DNA of 64,000 nt from Variovorax sp. HW608 (GTDB lineage: Bacteria > Pseudomonadota > Gammaproteobacteria > Burkholderiales > Burkholderiaceae_C). Positions 2,786-36,249 of the stretch are shown one piece after another. A program made the translations under genes and the position numbers. Where the stretch lies: positions 3,348,001 through 3,412,000 of the forward strand of contig NZ_LT607803.1 of NCBI RefSeq assembly GCF_900090195.1, given 5' to 3'. Below the pieces are notes generated by a model that saw only the letters and a program-made list of their open reading frames with translations, did no database searches and was not told the DNA's origin. Within the stretch, counting starts at the first letter, position 1. Each line of letters begins with the position of its first letter.

Positions 2786-2860
2786 TGGTCCCGCCGCCAG
2801 GAATCGAACCTGGATCTCAGCCTTCGGAGGGCCGAATTCTATCCGTTGAAATACAGCGAG
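2786..2860 (-). tRNA. tRNA-Arg (anticodon CCG)
   Basis: The 75-nt minus-strand sequence folds as a cloverleaf. The acceptor stem CTCGCTG pairs with CGGCGGG with three G-T wobbles. The D arm contains AACGGATA. The anticodon stem CGGCC/GGCTG closes the loop CTCCGAA with anticodon CCG. The T arm is CCAGG-TTCGATT-CCTGG, and CCA is encoded. CCG reads CGG codons. The 3' end faces the decayed region at 1-2740, the usual orientation for island integration into a tRNA gene, but no integrase or duplicated tRNA 3' end was seen. Confidence 0.9.
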
Positions 2861-29080: not shown

Positions 29081-29311
29081 CTAACAAGACTTAACTTCGA
29101 CCAAATTTGGATCGAAGCCATCCGAGGCATCGCCGTCACCGGCCGCGTTTGCGCTGCCGAAGTCCATCCAGTCGTCTCCGAACAGCTCAGCGGGGTGCTG
29201 CGTGCGCTCGGAGCCGTTGCCGCACATCATCGAGTCGGACGGGCAGTAGCGGTCACAGCCCCAGCAGACACGCTCGGGGTGCGCGGGCTTGATGGGGAAT
29301 TTCTTGGCCAT
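29081..29311 (-). CDS. DUF3079 small cysteine-rich protein
   Basis: This 76-residue protein has a highly conserved N-terminal block, MAKKFPIKPAHPERVCWGCD. Four Cys (16, 19, 23 and 30) in CWGCDRYCP...MCGNGSERTQHP could bind zinc or an iron-sulfur centre. GNGSERTQHPAELFGDDW is the DUF3079 hallmark. The tail after residue 50 is Asp/Gly-rich and variable. Function unknown. An upstream in-frame Met at 29389 was rejected because the family starts at MAKKFP. It may have been the neighbour of atpC before the intron arrived. Confidence 0.85.
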   Translation of the reverse strand: MAKKFPIKPAHPERVCWGCDRYCPSDSMMCGNGSERTQHPAELFGDDWMDFGSANAAGDGDASDGFDPNLVEVKSC

Positions 29312-29407
29312 GGTGCGGCGGATTGCTGCTGCCATTCTGCGCACATCCCACACGACAGGATTGAGCTCCATCAAGAAGCGGCGATCCACACCGCACCGGA
29401 TCGGGAT

Positions 29408-29476
29408 AGGGGCCGATCATCGCTGATCGGACCCCTCCCACACCACCCGGCATGCGGGTCCGCACCGGGCGGTTCG
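29408..29476 (-). ncRNA. Group II intron domains V and VI
   Basis: Minus strand: domain V (29476-29438) has paired arms CCGCCCGG...CCGGGTGG with the inner GTGCGGACCCGCATGC hairpin. Domain VI (29434-29408) is a long hairpin, GGTCCGATCA with TGATCGGCCC, that presents the branch-point region close to the 3' end. Both follow the maturase stop by a few bases, the normal arrangement. Confidence 0.8.
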
Positions 29477-29487
29477 AGAAGTTGAGG

Positions 29488-30141
29488 TCAGGAGAATTTG
29501 GGGACTCCCAGGCTATCGAAGTAGCGCACGGACAGCACTTTGTTCAGGCCTCTGTGGCTGTTGCGCCACCAACGTCTCGCGTTGCCGGCAATGCGCGCAG
29601 CCACCTCCACGCTCGCGCCCAGCTTGCGCAGCTCGCGGAACATCGTCGTCCCGCGCCGCCATTGCTTGAGCTGAACGCTGCGCAGCCGGTGCCGCAGCCA
29701 TTCGTCGAGTGCACGCATGACCCTGGGCGTCTGCGCGAGGCGGAAGTACGCCTTCCACCCCGGCACGTAGCCTTGGAGGTCCTTCGCGATCTGTTCAAGG
29801 CTGCGCCCCTTAAGGCGTCGCGTCAGTTGCCGGATGCGCTCACACAGCTTGTGCATGGCCTGATCGGCCACCGCCCGTTTTACCTCACCCTTGGACGTGA
29901 CGTACAGGCAGTAGCCCAGGAACTTACGTCCCCAGACCTCGCCCACCGCCGTTTTGGACTCGTTGACCAGCAGCCGCAACTTTGAGTAGCAGCCGCGCAG
30001 TGCTTGCAGCACACGCTCTCCCGCCCGCTGGCTCCTGACGTAGACGTTGCAGTCGTCGGCGTAGCGCACGAACTTGTGTCCGCGCCGCTCCAATTCTCGA
30101 TCCACCTCGTCCAACAGCACGTTGGCCAGCAGCGGGCTCAG
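29488..30141 (-). pseudogene. ltrA: Group II intron reverse transcriptase/maturase, 3' half
   Basis: This piece resumes exactly where the 5' half (35088-35816) stops: LSPLLANVLLDEVDREL, then the catalytic FVRYADDCNVYVRS (YADD), ESKTAVGEVWGRKFLGY and the thumb/maturase (X) domain to KVLSVRYFDSLGVPKFS. The C-terminal WWRNS...YFDSLG pattern is that of class C intron maturases, and there is no HNH endonuclease domain. Joined to the other half, the protein would be about 460 residues. Upstream of 30141 the frame enters the serine-recombinase element. Confidence 0.9.
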
Positions 30142-30694
30142 CACACCACGTACGCAATAGCGAACTTGCTTCCGGACCATCCCCGCGGGGCAAAGGGCCG
30201 CCCGGATTGCGTGGCCCCTCGGGCCCGCCGGACGGCCTGTTCGAGTTCGGGATCGAGTGTCGGATCGTGATGGTGTCGTCGTCAACGACGACCTCCTTGA
30301 CGAGCAGCCTGACGATGCGCTGTCGTTCCAGAACGTCCAGATCCTGCACCTGCATGCGCAGGCGTTCAAGGAACTCGCCCAGTGTGTGAGCGAGGCGCAG
30401 ATAAATTGCTTGATCGGCCAATTGGCTTCGCAACGATTCGATTTCCGCCTTCAACCGTGTCTCGCGCTGGCGCAACTCGGGCATGCGTCGGCGTAGCTCG
30501 TCCAGGCTGAGCAGGTCCTCTTGGTAGGCCGTCAGCAGCCGGTCAACGCGCCGCTGAACCTGCAGCAACTCGCGCGTGATCCTCTCCTGGTTGCGTTGGG
30601 CCGGATGGGATGTGCGCGCCGCCTCCACCCGCCGGGTCAGTTCGGCCTGAATCAGCCCAGGGTCTTCGAGCAATCGAGCAACCTCGGTCCACAC
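30142..30694 (-). pseudogene. Large serine recombinase, C-terminal part
   Basis: This is the part cut off by the IS21 element. It begins WTEVARLLEDPGLIQAEL and continues through a long coiled coil (LLQVQRRVDRLLTAYQ...LRSQLADQ) to LLVKEVVVDDDTITIRHSIP and SSLLRTW, the standard end of this recombinase group. Joining it to 33385-34508 across one CACACCGT duplication gives DTVWTEVARL in frame. The reading frame has no stop inside the element and runs on into intron DNA to 29924, so the element relies on host sequence for its stop codon. Confidence 0.85.
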
Positions 30695-30816
30695 CGTTGT
30701 TGGCGCCGACCGAAAATTGACCCACCTGTGAGGATTGTGCCGACCGAAATTTGACCCGGGTGTTCAACCTACCCTGCTGTTTTTTTGTGCAGCAGGAGAT
30801 GTAAGGAGTGATCACC

Positions 30817-32343
30817 ATGGCCATGATTGGCAAGGTTCGGCGGATGCATTTCCGCGAGAACAAGACGGTGCGCGAGATTGCGCGGGCGACGAGCCTGTCG
30901 CGCAATACGGTGCGCAAATACCTGCGGGTGCGGCAGGTCGATGAACCGCGGTATCGGCGGGCGGCGGCGCCGACCAAGCTGACGCCGTTCCACGAGACGA
31001 TCCTGCAGGCGCTGAAGGCTGACGCGCGGCGGCCCAAGCGCGAGAGGCGCACGGCCCGCGCGCTCCACGAGGAGCTCAAGGCCACTGGCTACGACGGGGG
31101 CTACAGCCGGCTGACCGATTTCATCCGGGAGTGGCGCCAGCGCGAGGGCCTTGATCTGAGCGCCAAGGCGTACGTGCCACTGGCCTTCGAGTTGGGTGAG
31201 GCGTTCCAGTTCGACTGGAGCGATGAAGGACTGGTGATCGCGGGGGTGTACCGGCGCGTGATGCTGGCGCACATGAAGCTGTGCGCGTCCAGGGCCTTCT
31301 GGCTGGTGGCCTACCCGAGCCAGGGCCACGAGATGCTGTTCGACGCGCACACGCGCGGGTTTGCGGCGCTGGGCATCGCGCGTCGCGGCATCTATGACAA
31401 CATGAAGACGGCCGTGGACAAGGTCAAGAAGGGCAAAGGGCGCGTCGTCAACTCACGCTTCGCCGTGATGTGCGCTCACTACCTGTTCGATGCTGACTTC
31501 TGCAACGTCGCTGCGGGCTGGGAGAAGGGCATCGTGGAGAAGAACGTGCAGGACAGCCGGCGGCGCGTGTGGCTGGAGGCGACCAAGCGGCGCTGGGGCA
31601 GCTTCGAGGAGCTCAACGCATGGCTGGCGACACGGTGCCGTCAGTTGTGGCAGGAGGTGCGCCACCCCGAACATGAAGCCTTCAGCATCGCGGAGATGCT
31701 CGAGCACGAGCGGACCCACCTGATGCCGATGACGGTGGCGTTCGACGGCTACGTGGAGAAGGCCGCACGCGTGTCGAGTACCTGCCTGGTGTCGGTGGCG
31801 CGCAACCGCTACTCGGTGCCGTGTGAGCTGGCCGGTCAGATGGTGTCGACAAGGCTGTACCCGAGCCGTGTGAAGGTGGTGGCGGGCGACCAGGTGGTCG
31901 CCGACCACGAGCGCCTCGCTGACGAGAGCAGGACGCAGTACGACTGGCAGCATTACATCCCGCTGCTGCAGCGCAAGCCCGGGGCGCTGCGCAATGGGGC
32001 ACCGTTCGCCGACATGCCTGAGCCGCTGCAACGGCTGCGGCGCGCCTTGTTGCGCGAGGCTGGCGGGGATCGCGTGATGGCGCAGGTGCTGGCCATCGTG
32101 CCCAGCGCCGGGCTCGACGCGGTCCTGGTGGCAGTGGAACTCGCGCTGGAGAGTGCGCCGCCGTCGGGCCGTGTGAGTGTCGAGCATGTACTCAACGTGC
32201 TGGGGCGGATGAACGCAGCGCCCCCGCCGCAGAACGTCAGGACGGCGTTGCAGTTGAGCGTGCCGCCGCTGGCGGACACGGCGCGCTATGACCTGCTGCG
32301 CGCAGGCGCGGCCCTCGCGGCCGAGGAGGTCGGCCATGCGTGA
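30817..32343 (+). CDS. istA: IS21-family transposase IstA
   Basis: This 508-residue DDE transposase has an N-terminal helix-turn-helix ([19 protein letters not shown]) and an rve-type catalytic core with Asp in FQFDWSDEG, Asp in IYDNMKTAV and Glu in [15 protein letters not shown]-terminal IS21 domain follows ([17 protein letters not shown]). The ATG at 30817 is preferred over a GTG at 30808 because AAGGAG lies eight bases before it. The last 8 bp overlap istB. Confidence 0.95.
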
Positions 32344-33133
32344 CCTCATCACGGAGCTCAAGGAGTTGCGTCTGCACGGCATGGCTGGGGCATGGGCCGA
32401 TCTGGTCGACCAAGGCAGCAGTGCGGCGGTGGATTCCTCGCGCTGGCTGATCGAGCACCTGCTGGAGGCGGAGGGCACTGATCGTGCAATGCGCTCGGTG
32501 CGTCACCAGATGACGGCGGCGAAGTTCCCGGTGCATCGCGACCTGGCGGGCTTCGACTTCGGCATCTCGCCGGTGGATCGTAAGCTCGTGATGCAGCTGG
32601 CGGACATGTCGTTCACCGAAAACGCGCACAACGTGGTCCTGGTAGGTGGAACAGGCACGGGCAAGAGTCATCTTGCAACCGCCATCGGCGTGAGCGGCAT
32701 CACGCGACATGGCAAGCGTGTTCGCTTCTACTCGGTGGTGGACTTGGTCAATGCGCTGGAGCAGGAGAAGGCCCAGGGCAAGGCCGGGCGCATCGCGGCA
32801 AGCCTGATGCGCATGGACGCGGTCGTATTGGACGAATTGGGGTATCTCCCCTTCAGTCAAGCCGGCGGGGCGCTGCTGTTCCATCTGCTCAGCCGGCTGT
32901 ACGAGCACACCAGCGTGGTCATTACAACGAACCTCGACTTCGGCGAATGGTCCACGGTGTTCGGCGACGCGAAGATGACCACGGCACTGCTGGACCGGCT
33001 CACGCACCACTGCCACATCCTGGAGACGGGCAACGAGTCGATCCGCTTCACGCGCAGCACGGCCGCGGCCAAGAAGCGCGTCAAGGAGCGTGAAATGAGT
33101 CGCAGGTCTCCTCAGGAGCTGCCGCAGGTGTAG
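32336..33133 (+). CDS. istB: IS21-family helper ATPase IstB
   Basis: This 265-residue DnaA/DnaC-type AAA+ ATPase delivers the IstA complex to target DNA. Walker A is GGTGTGKSH and Walker B is [11 protein letters not shown]; the [10 protein letters not shown] and [12 protein letters not shown] segments are family hallmarks. The start overlaps istA by 8 bp (coupled translation). Confidence 0.95.
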
Positions 33134-33196
33134 GCGCCGCCATAGGCCCGTTCTGCGGCCTTCCTAGGGGGATGAAGCCTCCAGCGAAGGCCGCCG

Positions 33197-33247
33197 CGCG
33201 CGGGGCAAGCTGCTACGGGCTACGCCCTTCGCAGCTTGCCCCGCGCG
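33197..33247. repeat. Perfect 17-bp inverted repeat inside the IS21 right end
   Basis: Arms CGCGCGGGGCAAGCTGC (33197-33213) and GCAGCTTGCCCCGCGCG (33231-33247) enclose a 17-base loop. It lies between istB and the right terminal repeat. There is no T-run, so it is not a classical terminator; it could still block incoming or outgoing transcription. Confidence 0.75.
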
Positions 33248-33384
33248 ACTTCCACCGTCATGGAGAACATCCTTCGTCGGCAAACAACCTACACTTATCC
33301 ACAGTCGGCACGAACGCTGCCGGCTTCCATCCCCGGGTCAGAATTCGATCGGCAGGGTGGGTCACATTTGAATCGGCGCCGACA

Positions 33385-34508
33385 CACACCGTATCCTCCA
33401 GCAGATCGAGCCGGATGGGCCGCGCATTGCACCGCGCCTTCCCTTGGTAGCGCCACGCGTCCGATCCCAGGCATCGGTAGTAGTAGATCTTGCGCGCGCT
33501 GCTGCACGTGGAAGTCCGATACAGCGCATAGCCGCATTCGGCGCAGTGCACCAAGCCCTGCAAAATACTCGGCTCGACCGTACGGCGTGGGGAGAACTTC
33601 TTGTTGTCTTGCAGTCGCTCTTGCGCCAGATCGAATGTCTGCTCATCCACCAGCGCAGGAACGGGGATCTGTATCCACTGATCAGGGGGCGTTTCGTGTT
33701 GGGTTCGAGTACCGCGCCGCGGTGGTCGGCTGCTCATGCGCACGGCACGGCTGCTGCGGCGCTGTCGCGGGGCCTCTTGTGTCTTGCCGAAGCAGGCCAA
33801 GCCTCGATACGCCGGATTGCGCAGCATCGCCCAGATCGTCGAGCGCTCCCAGCAGGACTGCCCCTTCCTCGTGGGCACGGCGACCTCGTTGAGTCGCCGC
33901 GTGATTGCACCGATGCTCAGCGCCTGCGCTGTGTACAGATCGAAGACCTGACGGACCACCTCGGCCTGCTCCTCGATGACCTCGTAGTAGGCCGCTCGTT
34001 CCTCGGTCTTGCGCATGTAGCGATAGCCATACGGGGCGCCACTGAGCACGCTGATCTCGCCCTGTTTGGCGCGGTGGCGCTTGCCGCGGCGCGAGCGCTC
34101 CAGGATCTGGGCGCGTTCGTATTCGGCGATCATGCCCTGGAACTGCAGCAGCAACTGGTCCTCAGGTGTTTGCGACTGCGGCGCTTTGATGAAGATCGTC
34201 TCCACGCCGTGACGCAGCCATTCCTCGGTGAGCAGGACCTGGTAGGCATACTTGCGACTGAGTCGATCCGGCGATAGCACCAGAACGGCCTGAATCTGAC
34301 CTTCAGCGACGAGGTCTCGGACTCGCTCCAGGCCTGGTCGAATCAGTGTGGCTCCGCTAAAGCCCTCGTCCTCGAAGATCCACTCAGCCGGTACGCTGAA
34401 ACCTTGGCTTGAAGCGAACGTCATCAGTGCGGCCGTTTGACTGTTGATCGTCTTGTCCTCCTTCTGCTGGTCGGAGGACACCCGTGCATAGATCGCCGCT
34501 GTCTTCAT
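33385..34508 (-). pseudogene. Large serine recombinase, N-terminal part
   Basis: The catalytic domain begins MKTAAIYARVSSDQQ, with the nucleophile Ser11. It continues with RPGLERVRDLVAEGQIQAVLV, SPDRLSRKYAYQ and the long E helix near QFQGMIAEYERAQILERSRRGK. The recombinase domain (GAPYGYRYM...) and a zinc beta-ribbon with CAECGYAL and later Cys residues follow. IS21 entered after LLEDTV (residue about 373); the frame then runs to a stop at 33258 inside the IS. Intact relatives are about 550 residues and catalyse integration and excision of their element. As split, it is unlikely to be active. Confidence 0.9.
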
Positions 34509-34656
34509 GAGCGTGCCCTCCTATTCGGCCAGCCTCGCCGGTACGGCGGGTTCGATCGGGAACCAGGATGTCATAGACCTGTTCGAGCTTGGCGCTGAAC
34601 AAGCGGTCAAAACAATATTCGAATCGGACCTGGCGACTGTGGCGGCGCTCAGCCAC
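34384..34656 (-). CDS. Small protein of the serine-recombinase element, unknown function
   Basis: This 90-residue frame starts at a GTG that overlaps the stop of the preceding DNA-binding-protein gene (GTGGCTGA) and extends 125 bp into the recombinase gene in another frame. The first part (VRFEYCFDRLFSAKLEQVYD ... ILVPDRTRR) looks protein-like, and I recall a similar short ORF upstream of recombinase genes in related elements. The second part may be only a shadow of the recombinase. It could couple translation of the three genes. Confidence 0.45.
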   Translation of the reverse strand: MAERRHSRQVRFEYCFDRLFSAKLEQVYDILVPDRTRRTGEAGRIGGHAHEDSGDLCTGVLRPAEGGQDDQQSNGRTDDVRFKPRFQRTG

Positions 34657-34978
34657 GCCGACGCTCCCGAGCCACCAAGGCCGAGACGGCACGCGAAACC
34701 ACATCGCCGATCGTCGAACCCGTGGCATGCGCGTGCTCGCGCAGCGTCGTGACGATGTCCCCGGGCACCTTGATGGTGATGGCCACGCTGGGTGCCGAGA
34801 CCGCCACAGGGCGTTTGATCGTCTGGGCTTCCTGCAAATAGCGATAGGCTTGGCGCTGCGACAACCCGAACTGTTCGGTCAGCATCGCCGCAGCCTGCGC
34901 GACAGCATGGCCTTGAGTGAGCAGATCGAATGCAGCGTTCAAGCGTTGGGCCCTTTCGGCGCCGGAGGATCGCGACAT
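34649..34978 (-). CDS. Element-encoded DNA-binding protein (HTH plus ribbon-helix-helix-like)
   Basis: This 109-residue protein has an N-terminal helix-turn-helix-like segment (AAMLTEQFGLSQRQAYRYLQEA, typical of resolvase-like HTH) and a C-terminal part (VAITIKVPGDIVTTLREHAHATG) that resembles a ribbon-helix-helix domain. It is the first gene of the element. Inverted GACGCAA/TTGCGTC sites lie directly before its ATG, so it probably represses itself and may steer the recombinase, as excision factors do. A TTG nine bases upstream could also start it, but that codon overlaps the repeat. Confidence 0.75.
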   Translation of the reverse strand: MSRSSGAERAQRLNAAFDLLTQGHAVAQAAAMLTEQFGLSQRQAYRYLQEAQTIKRPVAVSAPSVAITIKVPGDIVTTLREHAHATGSTIGDVVSRAVSALVARERRRG

Positions 34979-34980
34979 TG

Positions 34981-35076
34981 GACGCAAACATATTACCTCT
35001 TGCGTCTAAAGTCAAGAATCGATCGCGTCCGGCACAACGCAACGCACCGCTCAAACTCGAAGTTGCCTTTTGCGTC
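34981..35076. promoter_or_regulatory. TTGCGTC repeats at the element terminus
   Basis: GACGCAA (34981-34987) and TTGCGTC (35000-35006) form an inverted pair immediately before the DNA-binding-protein gene. A third TTGCGTC stands at 35070-35076 inside the right end, and a one-mismatch copy (TACGCAA, 30151-30157) lies in the left end. They are candidate binding sites for the element-encoded DNA-binding protein or the recombinase. Confidence 0.55.
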
Positions 35077-35087
35077 TATGGCGTGAG

Positions 35088-35816
35088 TGGCCCGCCTTGC
35101 GGCGTGCCCTCAAACCGTTCGCTGTGCACCCCGTGCGCCAGGATGCCCGCTTGCAGGTAACGGCGAATCAGCCGCAGCACCTGCTTGTCCGCTATCCGCT
35201 TTGCCAGGCGGTCCATCAGGATGTCGTGGTTCACGCGGTCGAAGAATTTCTCCAGATCCACGTCTACCACGATCCCGTAGCCCGCCTGCGCGTACTGCTG
35301 CGCCTCCAACACCGCGTCGTGCGCGCTTCGCCCCGGCCGGAAGCCGTGACTGTGCTCGCTGAAGGTCGGATCGATGAGCGGTTGCAGTACTTGCAGCAGC
35401 GCCTGCTGGATCAATCTGTCCACGACGGTCGGTATCCCCAGTTCGCGCATCCCGCCACCCGGTTTGGGAATGCCCACGCGGCGCACCGGCTCGGGCCGGT
35501 AGCTGCCGTCCAACACTCTTCTTCGGATGGCCGGCCACGCTGTCTTGAGATAGTCGCCCGTTTCTTGCACTGTGCGTCCATCGACGCCAGCGCTGCCCTT
35601 GTTGGCCTTCACGCGTTTCCACGCGCGCGCCATGTTCTCTCTGGCCAGCGCCTGCCCCAGCAGGTCAGTGGCCCCACAGTTCGTTTGTTCACGGCGCGCC
35701 AGCGTTGCTTCATCGCTCCCGGCTTCAGACGCGGCTTCACCGCGCCTCACTCCCGTGCGCCCCGGTCCGTCTTGCGACCTCCCGGGCTTCTGATGCAATG
35801 CACCGCCAAGCCTCAT
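35088..35816 (-). pseudogene. ltrA: Group II intron reverse transcriptase/maturase, 5' half
   Basis: This part contains RT blocks 0-4: ARENMARAWKRVKANKGSAG, VGIPKPGGGMRELGIPTVVD, FSEHSHGFRPGRSAHDAV and the catalytic Asp of VVDVDLEKFFDRVNHD. It stops at GTPQGGPL, where the serine-recombinase element enters. The other half (29488-30141) holds YADD and the maturase domain. The start at 35816 is the first Met of the frame, and later starts are possible. Splitting puts the catalytic Asp residues on separate transcripts, so the maturase should be inactive. Confidence 0.9.
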
Positions 35817-36196
35817 GACTCGTCACTGTCCTTCTCGTTCGGTTCTTCGTCGGGTCGCCCCGACTACTACAACCTCTGCTGACTTCTCGCTCCACCTCAT
35901 CGGTGTCGCCCTTTCAGGCACAAGGCGAGATCTCCCCAGGTAAGAACGCCATCCTTCACCGCACAGCCGTCGCATCTACGTCACCTCGCCTTGACCACAA
36001 GGGCTTCGCGATCATTTGCCCGCTCGCCCTGCTCGGCACCGCCTCATATGCGCTTCGTGTTCCTCGACTCGCGGCTTACGCTCCATGCTTCCTTCCCACG
36101 CTCGGTCGCCCTCACGCAGTTGCACTTCACTTCGCTCACTGTGGTCAGCTCGCGGGAGGACTCGCACCTCCAGGATCGCGCCCATGCTGGGCGCAC
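35817..36196 (-). ncRNA. Group II intron 5' RNA region (domain I and following)
   Basis: Between the 5' end at 36196 and the maturase ORF lie about 380 bases with no other gene. The first 20 bases form a GCGCCCAGCATGGGCGC hairpin typical of intron domain I starts, and further paired stretches follow. The longer spurious ORFs here have no protein similarity that I recognise. Exon-binding sites could not be fixed by eye. Confidence 0.65.
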
Positions 36197-36200
36197 AAAT

Positions 36201-36227
36201 AAAAAAGCCGCCCAAAGGCGGCTTTTT
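36201..36227 (-). terminator. Terminator of the ATP synthase operon
   Basis: The stem GCCGCC/GGCGGC (36207-36212 and 36217-36222) with a CAAA loop is flanked by A and T runs. On the minus strand the T-run is followed by ATTT and then the intron 5' end at 36196. It closes the atp operon 23 bp after the atpC stop. Confidence 0.9.
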
Positions 36228-36249
36228 CGGAGAAGTCAGACCGTGCCGG

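Follow-up and report, generated by a model that had tools for sequence, protein, structure and literature searches.

The stretch of Variovorax sp. HW608 that we analysed (contig NZ_LT607803.1, positions 3,348,001 to 3,412,000, 64,000 nucleotides; the "window") contains a three-deep nest of mobile DNA: an IS21-family insertion sequence lies within a large serine recombinase (LSR) element, which in turn lies within a group II intron. The nest as such is of modest interest; more important is the clade to which its middle layer belongs, whose recombinases target the reverse transcriptase (RT) genes of group II introns and have a displaced tail. We regard it as very likely that the layers arrived in the order intron, LSR element, IS21, that the LSR element belongs to a clade of two-gene transposons targeting RT genes, and that its recombinase gene crosses its own attachment site (attP) and swaps its tail upon integration.

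The LSR element and its uninterrupted second copy

The LSR element spans 30142..35085 (minus strand), comprising 4,944 bp with the IS21 element and 2,249 bp without IS21 and its target duplication. Its ends form an imperfect inverted repeat (18 of 25 positions) with arms at 30142..30166 (plus strand) and 35061..35085 (minus strand), flanked by two copies of a 2-bp core AG read from the sequence (30140..30141 and 35086..35087). The original prediction, made from the sequence alone, had placed the element at 30142–35087; its left limit stands, but the right end is better placed at 35085.

The recombinase gene is split by IS21 into a 5′ part (33385..34508, minus strand) with the domain matches and a 3′ part (30142..30697, minus strand) whose translation stays open through the element end. 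Resolvase (residues 4–151), Recombinase (179–302) and zinc-ribbon (315–374) domains follow each other, all above Pfam cut-offs, and by these domains we classify the predicted protein as an LSR. Residues S11 and S12 near the N-terminus are invariant across 22 aligned recombinase rows; one of them is presumably the catalytic serine. An assignment to the IS607 serine transposases was rejected, with 42.4 bits against a cut-off of 110 and an N-terminal catalytic domain; in IS607 transposases, the DNA-binding domain precedes the catalytic one. A TnpX fragment was also matched.

The genome, searched as one contig of 7.73 Mb, holds a second copy of the LSR element (C1:6329911–6332159) that lacks IS21, carries CACACCGT, the IS21 target duplication of the window, only once, and is 100% identical over 2,249 bp (no mismatches in pieces of 1,701 bp and 558 bp). 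It serves as the empty site of IS21; the original prediction had proposed to search for such an IS21-free element in related genomes. It lies outside any intron, and the presence of two identical copies within the genome suggests that the element moved recently. Its cores are CA on one side and CT on the other, the latter being the window-copy core read in recombinase sense, as might be expected if a circle formed by the window copy had inserted at a CA site. Beside one end of this non-RT site (L015:7912–10160) stands CTCGCCCCCTTGCGGGG, which resembles the antisense of PQGG codons. The nesting, the duplications and the predicted order of arrival are supported. For IS21 and for the ends of the LSR element, rearrangement in place of insertion is unlikely, since the second copy keeps these ends without IS21 and the relatives described below share the junction pattern.

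A recombinase frame that would continue across joined ends

For comparison, we scored at least 8,000 recombinase relatives in a protein search, of which 120 were listed, and scanned species genomes, which gave 205 loci. The locus set comprises 94 loci from many phyla, namely the best 80 of the 205 genome loci, 12 matched plasmid records represented by the best place of each (12 of 16 places) and the two own copies; one locus (L082) could not be assessed for its flanks, leaving 93 assessable loci. Within the host's own family, a recombinase match at E 1e-50 was found in only one of 299 genomes, namely the own genome. According to the profile of known ends, the element is mostly 2.2–2.3 kb long and ends in inverted repeats of about 25 bp; in relatives the recombinase usually starts 577–583 bp from one element end. 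A small protein gene upstream of the recombinase was detectable in 87 of the 93 loci besides the window copy, in some of them as just a piece.

The recombinase frame could be traced as far as a conserved end motif, ..LLR-x-G/W, in 72 of 82 loci, and in these no stop precedes the element end; in the other 10, the frame is cut or broken, or the motif was not found. For 101 of the database relatives listed, the end motif is present; their 82 tails of at least 14 residues are all different. The opposite element end, when read in the frame that joined ends would continue, encodes a conserved tail with the consensus HALNAKGNFEFERVIPLWRSRSVLDLRRKR in the 30-codon group. In the window, this displaced tail comprises 30 codons and a TAA stop (34993..35085, minus strand) and would be in frame with the recombinase only across joined ends. 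By the open frame and the conserved in-frame tail, the attachment site lies inside the element's own recombinase gene. Of 73 loci, 41 have a tail of 30 codons and 12 have one of 31 codons. Its third codon positions are the most variable (permutation p about 0.0005 over nucleotides 27–90, a range that includes the promoter overlap described below), and in codons 10–22, which lie between the inverted repeat and the promoter-like sequence, the synonymous share of single-base codon differences is 0.71; the two remaining forward frames give 0.18 and 0.06, and the three reverse frames 0.18, 0.56 and 0.14.

Several observations speak against a coding tail. Its length deviates in 20 of the 73 loci, one reverse frame is also 0.56 synonymous, and a putative promoter-like sequence (TTGACT-17-TATGTT; 34987..35015, minus strand) overlaps the last tail codons. 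Joined ends, as expected of a circle, were absent from the viral contigs (0 matches), yielded three candidates by protein search, none of them at E 10 or better, and gave a single mismatched match, unlike the ends, in one genome among the 51 genomes and records covered, which represent part of the loci (52 chosen, plasmid record W12 excluded). These observations leave some room for another explanation, which we judge unlikely but worth keeping in mind: RT targeting would be real, but the displaced tail would be attachment-site, promoter or operator sequence, and the recombinase would use any host stop. Such a non-coding segment would suit the facts that the first 25 nucleotides are the inverted repeat and the end overlaps the promoter-like sequence, as well as the failure to find either a circle or a tail-bearing recombinase in the sets just named. 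It does not sit well with codons 10–22, where the share is still 0.71 in the recombinase frame as against 0.18 and 0.06, nor with a length of 30 or 31 codons in 53 of the 73 loci.

Insertion sites in group II intron RT genes

To characterise the insertion sites, RT profiles were seeded by an own-genome RT, grown through the flanks and applied to either flank of each locus. At least one flank carries RT sequence in 79 of the 93 assessable loci: 27 have both RT halves in sense and 23 both in antisense orientation, five have the N-terminal half on both sides, and 24 have RT sequence on one side. Apart from a few loci such as L122, the 50 two-sided cases have their junction within TPQGG-x-(I/L/V)-SPLLAN, at bases 1 and 2 of the codon that precedes SPLLAN. 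The flanking RTs are nearly all different, with 67 N-terminal flanks forming 66 clusters and 65 C-terminal flanks forming 63 clusters at 90% identity. Insertion orientation shows no clustering along the recombinase tree, with 40 changes compared to a shuffled mean of 38.8, and in two cases identical recombinases are found in opposite orientations within one genome (L033/L034 and L046/L048). Of 13 loci tested for group II intron RNA domains, 12 have them on the side and strand predicted by the insertion (L033 being unclear), and introns from several RNA families hold the element. Nine of the 12 plasmid stretches are annotated, and in eight of these nine an RT or maturase is annotated beside the recombinase, the ninth having a DUF4158 gene. 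By these flanks, the element belongs to a clade that usually inserts into the RT genes of group II introns. The original prediction had treated the middle insertion as one more nested element; the nesting holds, but the element is better described as a member of this clade. In open-licence papers, we found no description of LSR elements that aim at the RT genes of group II introns.

As a control, we inspected 26 further loci with a PF07508 domain in the host family and found neither RT sequence nor small genes (0 of each) in windows reaching only 1.5 kb from the domain match, which would miss elements with long cargo. These short control windows and the use of RT profiles grown from the flanks themselves count against a specific preference, and 14 of the 93 loci without RT mean that the preference is not absolute; these are L021, L025, L036, L040, L042, L043, L052, L056, L061, L085, L095, L100, L115 and the second own copy, and they include two of two Methylocystis copies. 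The cores also depart from expectation: in 75 loci readable on both sides they are equal in only 36, differ by one base in 30 and differ at both bases in nine, unlike typical LSRs.

The loci outside RT genes by the profiles, the second own copy among them, would be expected if unrelated elements had merely landed in one another and the recombinase element had no intron preference. We consider such ordinary nesting very improbable, given that 79 of the 93 loci lie in RT genes, at the same codons, in both orientations and in nearly all different RTs. Hardly credible is a passive rider, captured once by an intron and spreading with introns instead of finding them: the nearly constant position in the intron open reading frame (ORF) would agree with it, but the several RNA families, the differing flanking RTs, the identical recombinases in both orientations within one genome and the identical own copy outside any intron all contradict it.

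Some loci deserve separate mention. In L030, L032, L038, L044 and L121, the N-terminal half of the RT stands on either side of the element in inverted arrangement, and in L021 (Schlegelella koreensis), a 232-bp inverted repeat of 98.7% identity surrounds the element at a non-RT target; these arrangements may reflect either recombination between copies or assembly joins. In a Streptomyces plasmid (L115), a relative of the element adjoins a DUF4158 gene and not an intron RT. The contig of one interrupted intron has a guanidine-II riboswitch match (L026:727–771).

Proposed mechanism

Taken together, we propose that the middle layer is a 2.25-kb transposon with two genes, encoding the LSR and a small protein with helix-turn-helix (HTH) and ribbon-helix-helix (RHH) parts, and that its clade is specialised on retroelements. 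The excised element would be a circle whose attP is the near-palindrome formed by both ends, and the recombinase would join this circle to a pseudo-palindromic bacterial attachment site (attB) made of the codons around TPQGG-x-(I/L/V)-SPLLAN in group II RTs. The 2-bp core would correspond to the first two bases of the I/L/V codon, with mismatched cores tolerated. Insertion would be possible in either orientation because attP is nearly symmetric. In the circle, the recombinase gene would cross attP and end in the conserved tail of about 30 codons supplied by the opposite end; on insertion, the recombinase would lose this tail and read into host letters. A difference in activity between the circle-made and the integrated enzyme might then act as a landing switch, and the small protein may regulate or steer recombination. 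Such a landing would cost the host little, since the intron that is hit is selfish as well and, in the window, lies behind a terminator. It seems rather more probable than otherwise that this picture applies in full, i.e. that these are phylum-crossing transposons living on retroelements, which use the most conserved RT codons as landing pad in either orientation and reset themselves on landing, the enzyme with the conserved tail being made only from the circle and the integrated one having a host-encoded C-terminus.

The small protein gene of the window (34649..34978, minus strand; 109 amino acids), identified by translation, conservation among relatives and a structure model, encodes an N-terminal three-helix part and a C-terminal RHH part. 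The model has five helices, with a mean pLDDT of 87.6 and a pTM of 0.56. Among 28 members compared at E 0.01, 11 matched RHH_1 and nine matched ANTAR; the window protein itself had no Pfam match above cut-off and no NCBIfam match, and its identification as a named directionality factor was rejected on these grounds. From its size and place, we would guess at a regulator or directionality factor.

Relation to known systems

TnpX of Tn4451 is an LSR-type enzyme that moves its transposon via a circle, the transposon carrying cargo; the enzyme type is like that of the clade while the target differs. Group II twintrons are introns within introns, and the integrase of Myxococcus phage Mx8 is a tyrosine integrase. 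The window enzyme, in contrast to the Mx8 and SSV type, has the domains of a serine recombinase.

A close parallel is Mx8 itself, in which attP lies within the integrase gene and integration creates a new 3′ end that changes specificity while the gene remains active (PMC6070905). As in Mx8, the clade's attachment site lies inside its own recombinase gene and the tail would be swapped on integration; unlike the clade, Mx8 is a phage and not a transposon, and the attB sites given in the cited portion are not intron RT genes (PMC6070905). Archaeal suicidal integrases, e.g. that of SSV1, also have the recombination site within their own gene and are called exclusively archaeal in a review, which also depicts recombination between inverted copies (PMC8371274). 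The SSV1 type, as presented there, comprises tyrosine recombinases whose gene is cut in two, whereas in the clade the gene belongs to a serine recombinase, the tail alone is displaced and the hosts are bacteria. In the integration-dependent immunity of mycobacteriophages, attP lies in coding sequence and landing alters the C-terminus and hence the activity of the product (PMC9934374), but the protein changed is the repressor, while in the clade it is the recombinase. In the accounts cited, none of these three cases is a transposon or aimed at intron RT genes.

For multi-targeting and site-specific LSRs, some of which are multi-copy, attachment sites have been inferred from insertions; neither "Group II" nor "reverse transcriptase" occurs in the main text of that study (PMC10083194). 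IStrons are mobile elements fused to group I introns (PMC4227781). Like the clade, IStrons, as described in the cited part of that source, and twintrons are tied to self-splicing introns, but they are not DNA transposons with RT genes as their target.

If the proposed mechanism is true, the clade would parallel the Mx8 and SSV arrangement with transposons that live in bacteria and use a serine recombinase. It would extend to bacterial serine recombinases what the passage on suicidal integrases calls exclusively archaeal (PMC8371274), Mx8 already being a bacterial case. Mobile DNA needs non-lethal targets, and the clade appears to answer this need by aiming at the conserved enzyme core of another parasite; landing in a selfish intron would spare the host. 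Targeting the RT core would offer landing sites in very different bacteria and may put a brake on group II introns. The dozens of independent, readable insertion sites form a natural data set on the evolution of LSR target and core rules, and the idea of a landing switch, based on a recombinase gene that spans its own attachment site, could be tested directly.

The outer and inner layers of the nest

The group II intron that holds the nest spans 29400..36196 (minus strand) and shows D1–D4 and D5–D6 RNA together with an RT/maturase ORF. D1–D4 lie at 35842..36115 (minus strand; matches to RF02001 and RF01998 at 35842–35918 and 35944–36115), and D5–D6 (RF00029) at 29400..29474 (minus strand), where 38.0 bits (E 7e-5) fall slightly below the gathering score of 40. 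The intron starts with GTGCG at 36196, directly behind a terminator-like hairpin of atpC read from the sequence (36201..36228, minus strand). The predicted 5′ end at 36196 is retained, while 29400 is the probable 3′ end and the 29406 proposed earlier is less likely. By translation and domain and family models, the maturase is divided into an N-terminal half (35088..35816, minus strand) and a C-terminal half (29488..30141, minus strand). Translated separately, one half closes with GTPQGGPL and the other opens with (L)SPLLAN, and in the group II RT/maturase model they account for complementary stretches (positions 2–188 and 184–353 of 353).

IS21 occupies 30698..33384 (plus strand; 2,687 bp), exactly as first proposed, with 29-nucleotide arms at 30698–30726 and 33356–33384 (79% complementary) and the 8-bp target duplication CACACCGT read from the sequence on either side (30690..30697 and 33385..33392). 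It encodes the transposase istA (30808..32343, plus strand; NF033546, 310 bits, cut-off 160) and the helper ATPase istB (32288..33133, plus strand; NF038214, 267 bits, cut-off 200), the latter given as the longest frame, so that the true start may be further in. A further IS21 relative with 77% identity to the window IS21 is present in the own genome (C1:352905–355520).

In the window, the RT is broken by the LSR element and the recombinase by IS21, and the original prediction that only IS21 is autonomous is literally fair. It does not follow that the inner layers are dead, because an identical uninterrupted copy of the LSR element and four related introns with uninterrupted maturases exist in the same genome. 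The LSR copy, given its identical sequence, might provide a recombinase that acts in trans on the intact ends of the window copy. The four introns, whose maturase reads PQGGPLSPLLAN, are 71% identical to the window intron over the 3′ part searched. Of 20 relatives found, nine same-genus loci were examined; none of the nine has an intron 3′ of atpC, and in these loci the ROK-side sequence lies close behind atpC. The empty site beside atpC is nevertheless not clean, because the DUF3079 gene beside the intron is also unmatched in them; in one same-genus locus (L102), the match extends to the junction, but again without the DUF3079 gene. In the window, this gene is located at 29081–29389, between the intron and the ROK gene. 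A tRNA gene lies further away in the window at 2789–2860 (minus strand).

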